Shown here: piece after piece, positions 47,655 through 49,062 of the stretch
Numbering within the stretch: position 1 is the stretch's first letter
How the letters are laid out: each line of letters opens with the position of its first letter
From: Spiroplasma diminutum CUAS-1
GTDB taxonomy: Bacteria; Bacillota_I; Bacilli_A; Mycoplasmatales; Mycoplasmataceae
Direction: 5' to 3'
NCBI RefSeq assembly: GCF_000439455.1
Contig: NC_021833.1
Span: 620,001-684,000 of the forward strand
Length of the DNA stretch: 64,000 nucleotides
Notes under the pieces: generated by a model
The model's input: the letters and a program-made list of their open reading frames with translations, nothing else
Database searches by the model: none
What the model was told of the DNA's origin: nothing
Program-made: the position numbers and the translations under genes

Positions 47655-47724
47655 TTGAAAAAATAAAATTATATAGTATTATCTATATAGATAGTTATCT
47701 ATATAGATAACTATCTTAAGGAGG
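47655..47724 (+). promoter_or_regulatory. promoter with 28-bp perfect palindromic operator
   Basis: TTGAAA (47655) and TATTAT (47677) are 16 bp apart. The 12-bp palindrome ATCTATATAGAT occurs at 47681-47692 and again at 47697-47708, 16 bp apart. The second copy is the core of a perfect 28-bp palindrome, 47689-47716, with arms AGATAGTTATCTAT. It abuts the AAGGAGG ribosome binding site of the Cys-rich peptide gene. The layout fits an ArsR/SmtB-type repressor site. Confidence 0.75.
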
Positions 47725-47728
47725 ATAT

Positions 47729-47797
47729 ATGCTTAGAGTTTCTTTAGGATGTACATGTGAAGTTTGTACATGTACAGATTGTAAATGTGGTAAATAA
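47729..47797 (+). CDS. 22-aa cysteine-rich peptide
   Basis: A 22-residue ORF, MLRVSLGCTCEVCTCTDCKC plus GK, with six Cys as CTC, CTC and CKC plus spacing residues. It has a perfect AAGGAGG five bases before the ATG, a regulated-looking promoter, and a terminator one base after the stop, so it is very probably translated. Composition fits a minimal metallothionein that would bind Zn, Cu or Cd. A convergent ArsR-family gene next to it is the likely metal sensor. Confidence 0.75.
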   Translation: MLRVSLGCTCEVCTCTDCKCGK

Positions 47798-47825
47798 AAA
47801 ATAGAGTTTAAAACTCTATTTTTTA
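47796..47825. terminator. bidirectional terminator between Cys-rich peptide and ArsR gene
   Basis: The stem AAAAATAGAGTTT/AAACTCTATTTTT with T-runs on both strands lies between convergent genes; the ArsR stop is inside it. Confidence 0.9.
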
Positions 47826-48139
47826 TTATTACAGTTTGAACAGGTCATTAAATTTTTCTCCACTTGTAAATCAGATACAAAAGATTTTAAACTATTTACC
47901 ATTTCTCTATTCACTTTATATATTTTTGAATTTTTATCTTTTATTGAATTAATTAAACCCACCTTTTCAAGTAATTTCATATGATAACTTAAAGTTGGTT
48001 GTGTAATATTCAAATTATCCAAAATATTTTGAGCGCATTTATTACAACCACAATCACATATCATATTTATTATTTGTAATCTTGTTGGATCGCCTAAAAC
48101 CTTAAATATTTCAGCAAATTTTGTATAATTTTCTTTCAT
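47816..48139 (-). CDS. ArsR/SmtB-family metal-responsive regulator
   Basis: A 107-residue winged-helix protein. The N-terminal IFKVLGDPTRLQIINMI is the family signature; the recognition helix lies in ITQPTLSYHMKLLEKVGLI. Cysteines at CDCGCNKC (about residues 29-36) and the C-terminal CSNCNNKK are possible metal ligands. These resemble CadC/CmtR-like sites. The start ATG 48139 has GGAG upstream; an in-frame GTG/ATT extension has none. It likely represses the 22-aa peptide gene (inference). Confidence 0.85.
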   Translation of the reverse strand: MKENYTKFAEIFKVLGDPTRLQIINMICDCGCNKCAQNILDNLNITQPTLSYHMKLLEKVGLINSIKDKNSKIYKVNREMVNSLKSFVSDLQVEKNLMTCSNCNNKK

Positions 48140-48255
48140 AAATGTCTCCTTAAAAATCATTTCAAGATTTAATAAAATTATAACAATTTTAAATTAATAA
48201 ACTAATACTTAACAAAAATGTGTAAAATAATAATAGTAATTTAGGAGTGATTAAA

Positions 48256-49062
48256 GTGAGAAAATTACTTAGCGTAATTTCAGCCACAGCACTAGTTGGA
48301 ACATCAACTTTAACTGTTGTTTCATGTAGTTCTAATAAATATTTTAAAGAATTTAAAAAATGAATTGATAATAAAGAATCATTTTTATTATATATTGGAG
48401 CAGATGACTGCACACATTGTATAGATTTTGAAAATGCAAAAAAAGATAATTCTGATAAATTTAATGAAAAATTAATGCAAATAACAACTGGTTATAATCA
48501 AACAATAGCAAATAATGAAAATGAATATCCAGAAACAATGACAGCTTTTGGTGAGAAGTTAAATAATGAAGTTGATTTTAGAGAATTTAAAACAGAAGAA
48601 TTAGCAAATAATTTTAAAGAAAAATGAAGTAAAAATATAATCTCATGAATGGTTGATCAAGTAACGCCAATTTATAAAGATAAAACTTATGGAAATACTG
48701 GTACAAATGATACAGTTGCAACAAGATTATCAAAAAAAGCTGTTGAAGCATACTTTGATAGTTCTGATAATAAAGGAACTCCAATGTTTATTCTTATAAG
48801 AAATGGTAAATTAGTTTCTTGAAACGTTGGTTATTCAAAAAGTTCAGAAGTTGGTCATAGTGGAGTTGATATTGAGAAACTATTTGATCCAATTATTGAA
48901 GATATGAAATATAAAGAAATTGAAGAAAAAATGGTAACTAAAATTAACAATAGTGGCTCTTCTACTGGTGGAGGCGAAGGTGAAACTAGTGAGGATACAT
49001 TAAGCTTTAATTATGCATTGAATGACCAAGATTTAATTAATAATTATTATTTAAATAAATAA
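48256..49062 (+). CDS. thioredoxin-like lipoprotein with CxxC
   Basis: A 268-residue protein from a GTG start at 48256 with TTAGGAG upstream. The signal peptide ends in the lipobox VVSC (Cys24). The mature part starts like a thioredoxin fold: FLLYIGADDCTHCIDFENAK, with the CTHC pair where TlpA/DsbD-like proteins have CxxC, and ends TPMFILIRNGKLVSWNVGYS with the cis-Pro before it. A surface disulfide or metal-binding role is inferred. It is divergent from the ArsR gene. Confidence 0.8.

Follow-up and report, generated by a model that had tools for sequence, protein, structure and literature searches.

A 22-residue cysteine-rich peptide, a perfect palindrome and a gene for an ArsR/SmtB-family protein lie side by side in a Spiroplasma genome, raising the question of whether so small a locus could form a complete metal-responsive circuit. 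We investigated this question in a window of 64,000 nucleotides (620001-684000 in the coordinates of a mollicute genome of 945,296 bp, in which TGA encodes tryptophan), and assessed conservation across a sample of 20 genomes of the genus.

Organisation of the locus

The peptide MLRVSLGCTCEVCTCTDCKCGK is encoded on the forward strand at 47729-47797, and is preceded by a Shine-Dalgarno sequence, AAGGAGG, read from the sequence at 47718-47724 (forward strand) and found in all the relatives. Both the six-cysteine ORF and its strong ribosome binding site are as the initial annotation had described them. A putative promoter for the peptide gene was placed by consensus only at 47655-47682 on the same strand, with a -35 element TTGAAA (47655-47660) and a -10 element TATTAT (47677-47682). 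These matched the consensus at 10 of 12 positions, the top score of the region, which agrees with the promoter annotated before, though about seven equally good sites would be expected by chance; TATTAT was found at the equivalent position in all 10 genomes with the cassette.

The ArsR/SmtB-family protein, of 107 aa, is encoded on the reverse strand at 47816-48139, tail-to-tail with the peptide gene. Between the two lies an AT-rich hairpin with U/A tracts (47793-47827) and perfect arms of 17 nt, which has a counterpart in 10 of 10 genomes, where the stem sequences differ yet pair. The terminator previously proposed for the peptide thus stands as a conserved paired structure, but was not listed by a terminator scan, which missed it because it is AT-rich and contains few G-C pairs; it is probably a terminator common to both convergent genes.

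A cysteine-rich peptide of 22 residues

The six cysteines of the peptide make up 27% of its residues, and form three CxC pairs. Orthologues of 21-28 aa, with 6-8 cysteines in (CxCxx) repeats, were identified in 10 genomes, the six core cysteines being invariant and the residues between them variable. Third codon positions were the most variable, and synonymous exceeded non-synonymous change in most pairs, a signal that over 13 codons is weak alone. The window peptide has the features by which metallothioneins are recognised in the broad sense (short length, at least ~20% cysteine in CxC or CxxC motifs, few or no aromatic residues), and contains no histidine. Searches against Pfam and NCBIfam, which can miss very short peptides, gave no match at E up to 1 for the window peptide, nor at E up to 10 for one orthologue from the genus, while curated models of bacterial SmtA-type metallothioneins did not match the window peptide and no relative of it was found in the PDB. 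We found no report of a metallothionein in Spiroplasma or other mollicutes in the open-access literature searched, and one may exist elsewhere. The peptide is most likely a metal-induced mini-metallothionein.

A conserved candidate operator at the peptide promoter

We identified a candidate operator, the 15-2-15 inverted repeat TTATCTATATAGATA-GT-TATCTATATAGATAA, at 47679-47710. It spans 32 bp, shares four bases with the -10 box and covers the expected start site. The repeat is built by two copies of the 12-bp core ATCTATATAGAT, at 47681-47692 and 47697-47708, with the spacing of 16 bp that had been annotated earlier, and it contains a 12-2-12 repeat. A 12-2-12 repeat close to the start site is the kind of site documented for SmtB/ArsR repressors (PMC8790569), and the 15-2-15 repeat provides one at the promoter of the target gene. 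Across 10 genomes, mean pairwise identity was 97.5% in the operator, against 50% in the 52 bases upstream.

Each of the 10 ArsR-bearing genomes of the genus contained one copy of the operator, with 0-1 mismatch, and the 10 genomes of the genus that lack ArsR had none, nor had 228 genomes from other genera. As the operator occurs once in the real genome and not at all in a reversed-sequence control, and is limited to ArsR-bearing genomes, its recurrence exceeds chance.

The initial annotation had taken a perfect 28-bp palindrome as the site of the regulator. This palindrome is present, at 47689-47716, sharing sequence with the operator's right half, and a conserved dyad does exist at this position, but the conserved one is the 15-2-15 repeat. 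The outer arms of the palindrome are only partly conserved, being perfect in five of 10 genomes (including G016, through a matched double change), paired at 24 of 28 positions in four and at 16 of 28 in one. Since the arms are intact in only half of the genomes, the palindrome is not the core operator, although its outer arms may contribute an RNA hairpin or part of a third half-site.

The single complete operator per genome suggests that the regulon probably consists of one gene, that of the peptide; arsR itself lacks an operator.

A half-site search additionally returned a second perfect half-operator, ATAGATA-CT-TATCTAT, outside the window and 5' of a SufC-like gene (G000, C1:729176-729191; L253, ~1177-1192). 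This gene belongs to iron-sulfur assembly, and the half-operator upstream of it may be due to chance. We rejected it as a regulon member, given that none of the other genus genomes yielded a half-operator at zero mismatches.

Distribution of the cassette within the genus

Conservation of the peptide, palindrome and ArsR trio in related genomes was the check proposed in the initial annotation, which held that the idea would fall if relatives lacked the peptide ORF. ArsR was found to be encoded in 10 of the 20 genus genomes; the same 10 carry the peptide and one operator copy each, and the other 10 carry none of the three. The trio of ArsR, operator and peptide is all-or-none across the sample, and the peptide, conserved in 10 genomes, comes through this check.

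The genes pepP and rpmG follow one another in all 20 genomes, and a gene for a thioredoxin-like lipoprotein comes next in most. We identified the peptide-arsR pair directly after rpmG in nine genomes, and empty sites at this position in 10 relatives and in G006, whose pair sits elsewhere. In a pepP tree, the nine genomes with the pair at the rpmG site form one clade (99/96) with G006 outside it, giving two changes. The empty sites in relatives, and the separate location of the module in G006, indicate that precisely the peptide and its repressor are gained or lost together, as a self-contained cassette. Blastn against plasmids gave no match, and a related-locus search over genome contigs gave no confirmed relative.

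The lipoprotein, at 48247-49062 of the window, carries a thioredoxin-like CxxC (LYIGADDCTHC) and, in most of the genus genomes, is encoded next to rpmG. We rejected it as a part of the cassette, as it is present at empty sites and lies away from the cassette in G006.

The ArsR/SmtB-family protein and its cysteine clusters

The 107-aa protein scored 65.3 bits against NF033788 (cut-off 55) and 44.5 against PF01022 (cut-off 22), so that its winged-helix domain lies above the curated cut-offs for the ArsR/SmtB family. Its predicted structure is a winged helix (pLDDT 84), closest to the structures of As(III)-ArsR, CzrA and SmtB, with CadC also matched; sequence matches in the PDB were likewise to CzrA, CadC, SmtB and ArsR. 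The two cysteine clusters noted before in this convergent protein are C28xCxCxxC35 and C100xxC103, and all six cysteines (28, 30, 32, 35, 100 and 103) are invariant in 10 sequences.

We found neither of two known metal sites in this protein. The alpha-5 Asp/His site of SmtB and CzrA is absent, the single histidine (H53) lying in the recognition-helix region and the C-terminal helix having none, and the alpha-3N site of CadC type (an N-terminal cysteine pair plus CxC) is absent too, with no cysteine before residue 28. As both the alpha-5 histidine site and the N-terminal cysteine pair of CadC are missing, we infer that the metal site is of a cysteine-only kind; the cysteine arrangement is an exact match to no characterised sensor site.

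Related pairs and peptides in other genera

In another genus of the same family, we identified arsR homologues (E ~1e-28 to 1e-30) with a short cysteine peptide immediately 3'. The peptide after arsR at one locus (L026) is MEVNKFMCNCNCKCNDCTCASNGTSCK, in operon order. At the other (L025), a doubtful 8-aa peptide, MCPDCGCC, read by hand and with a good Shine-Dalgarno sequence, follows the arsR homologue at ~1500-1530; after its TAG comes CLFCQHK..., and it may be a peptide in minimal form or what is left of a longer, decayed one. The operator-like sequence ATAGATA-N2-T(A/G)TCTAT lies upstream of arsR in this second genus, the arrangement of L025 and L026, and the core dyad ATAGATA-N2-TATCTAT goes with the peptide-ArsR pair in both genera.

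Short CxCxxCxCxxCxC ORFs, mostly with a Shine-Dalgarno sequence, were additionally identified elsewhere in the mollicutes: L029 (37 aa), L043 (28), L175 (24), L177 (23), L179 (26), L181 (30), L182, L184 (24), L243 (23), L245 (31), L246 (27), L247 (38) and L248 (22). So short a peptide, which the initial annotation expected to be unusual in a mollicute, is thus no isolated case, as several genera of mollicutes have short (CxCxx)n peptides. A profile search found no ArsR of the cassette type beside L029, L043 or L175-L184, and the neighbourhoods of L243-L248 were inspected by eye alone. Several further matches to the pattern across the order were TGT/TGC repeats or out of frame, and were dropped.

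In another mollicute family, L246 (G049), L247 (G043) and L248 (G054), which are all three genomes of one genus, have a (CxCxx)n peptide of 22-38 aa 3' of a proC-like gene; a sister genus, g16, has P1B ATPases. Three mollicute loci (L178, L183 and L244) encode longer proteins in which CxCxxCxC stretches look as though a metallothionein-like segment had been fused on, and the 344-aa protein of L178 ends in ...CSCKCQKCTCTECKC.

Beyond the mollicutes, a metallothionein ORF lies directly after arsR in Rothia (L066) and Mobilicoccus (L101), in operons that are independent of the Spiroplasma cassette, and similar peptides occur in Flavobacteriaceae (~33 aa, 11 cysteines) and Actinobacteria. None of the relatives tested matched Pfam or NCBIfam. 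Common descent and convergence may each explain the (CxCxx)n peptides, whose repeats are too short to tell. The Flavobacteriaceae peptide, of the type MKNKECTCNCEGCSKGNCQNCTCENCTCTNCNC, was seen at L056, L083, L106 and some 30 further loci; at the three loci inspected, it lies, as judged by eye, between genes for an ECF-type sigma factor and an OsmC-like protein.

A model for metal-induced expression of the peptide

We consider it highly probable that the locus is a two-gene metal-detoxification cassette, in which a metal-induced mini-metallothionein would be repressed by ArsR. Metal-free ArsR would bind the 15-2-15 operator over the -10 box and start site, blocking transcription of the peptide; a rising thiophilic metal would then bind the cysteine clusters of ArsR, which would leave the DNA; and the ensuing de-repression would allow the 22-aa (CxCxx) peptide to be made and to chelate the metal. 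We infer repression, release from DNA and metal binding from the observed placement of the operator across the promoter and its conservation amid a diverged intergenic region, from the all-or-none occurrence of the trio and the core dyad of the second genus, and from the metal sensors to which ArsR is related.

The principle is known from SmtA/SmtB, and what is new is the very small peptide variant. In SmtA/SmtB of Synechococcus, and in NmtA/AzuR and BmtA/BxmR of cyanobacteria, an ArsR/SmtB repressor is likewise paired with a metallothionein, and the promoter or start site carries a 12-2-12 type inverted repeat (PMC8790569). In contrast to these systems, the Spiroplasma peptide is far shorter and matches no curated family, the genes are convergent and not divergent, and ArsR has neither the His-rich alpha-5 site nor an operator at its own gene, such as the repressor genes of many autoregulated systems have. 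The Cys-type sensors CadC, ArsR and CmtR share with the Spiroplasma protein a fold and a cysteine cluster near the DNA-binding helices, and CadC and ArsR match it by both sequence and fold. However, the ligand set of CadC and CmtR differs from its CxCxCxxC and C-terminal CxxC, it scores far under the cut-off of the CmtR equivalog model, and the target of these sensors is a pump, whereas here it would be a peptide.

Fungal copper mini-metallothioneins of the Neurospora type, with ~25 aa and 7 cysteines, are similar to the Spiroplasma peptide in length, cysteine content and CxC motifs, a likeness that is presumably convergent, but the Spiroplasma peptide is bacterial, has regular (CxCxx)n spacing and has an ArsR partner. 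MymT of Mycobacterium tuberculosis is longer than the Spiroplasma peptide, unrelated to it in sequence and under a different regulator. Like the proposed function of the peptide, that of this bacterial metallothionein is linked to the detoxification of metal, in its case copper (PMC7387436).

P1B ATPases and the choice of metal

We investigated the distribution of P1B ATPases above the family cut-off. Within the genus, these were present in none of the 10 metallothionein-positive genomes and in seven of the 10 negative ones (Fisher two-sided 0.003), and across the order (246 genomes) in 0/20 positive and 71/226 negative genomes (two-sided 0.0013), comparisons that are not phylogenetically independent, coming mostly from a single genus, in which the metallothionein label changes twice. 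One genome (G115), whose peptide match sits inside a long ORF, was left out of the order statistic, and outside this genus no within-genus signal remained, a lack of overlap having a chance probability of 0.46.

All seven ATPases of the genus carry CPC, YN and MxxSS, which together we take to be a copper signature. A scan of three of them with the copper-ATPase model TIGR01511 placed one above the cut-off and two nearest that subfamily, below the cut-off, and a CsoR/RicR-like gene lies beside two of the seven. Because the cassette and these copper-type ATPases are complementary in distribution, copper(I) is the leading candidate for the metal, weakly favoured over zinc or cadmium. More broadly, we tentatively suggest, at somewhat less than even likelihood, that ultra-short (CxCxx)n metallothioneins of ~22-38 aa replace P1B ATPases in mollicutes, which would have pump or peptide and never both, and that, in this Spiroplasma group, a dedicated ArsR senses copper through a new CxCxCxxC...CxxC site and has the peptide as its only target. 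The peptide would then rank with the smallest of the regulated metallothioneins known from prokaryotes.

The same mechanism could instead respond to zinc, cadmium or lead, as in SmtA/SmtB and CadC, which we regard as a serious possibility if not a probable one. CzrA, SmtB and CadC, the nearest characterised repressors, respond to these metals, and the genus may lack export of zinc or cadmium as well, since no CDF efflux protein was found in any of its genomes; the seven P1B ATPases, however, occur only in relatives without the cassette and look copper-type, and the peptide has no histidine.

Readings without a metal

A redox role is unlikely, in which ArsR would sense thiol redox state or reactive sulfur, like RexT and BigR, and the peptide would buffer thiols or persulfides in cells that may lack glutathione. 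ArsR-family redox sensors do exist, RexT controlling a thioredoxin (PMC8960804), a thioredoxin-like lipoprotein adjoins the cassette, and ArsR shows a weak NCBIfam similarity to BigR, far under the cut-off. However, this lipoprotein occurs without the cassette at empty sites and apart from it in G006, two multi-cysteine clusters together with (CxC)n repeats are what metal-thiolate sites typically show, and the fold and sequence neighbours of ArsR are mostly metal sensors.

Control at the RNA level, with the palindrome as a 5'-UTR hairpin or the ORF as a leader peptide, appears very improbable. The 5' UTR in the window folds better than shuffled sequences (z = -2.4), and the matched double change of G016 falls in the outer arms; yet these arms are broken in five of 10 genomes while the DNA dyad is near-invariant, even in the part that lies at the probable start site or 5' of it, what follows the ORF is a putative terminator and no further gene on the same strand, and the Rfam scan gave a sub-threshold chance match only, with none at the gathering score. 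That this small cysteine-rich ORF is the precursor of a modified natural product or bacteriocin is barely credible, since the cassette has no modifying enzyme or transporter and the empty sites differ by two genes only, against which stands an insignificant match of a different mollicute peptide to a cysteine-rich RiPP model (E = 2.5).

Implications for metal handling in mollicutes

The peptide is matched by none of the curated family libraries that we searched. If the metal-induced cassette that we propose is correct, the locus would form a complete and compact circuit of one repressor, one operator and one 22-aa effector, in genomes undergoing strong reduction, and would provide a ready-made small metal-sensing switch. 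The metal handling of wall-less minimal bacteria is little known and, if the complementary distribution holds, a genome can exchange active metal export for a sequestering peptide of 22 residues.
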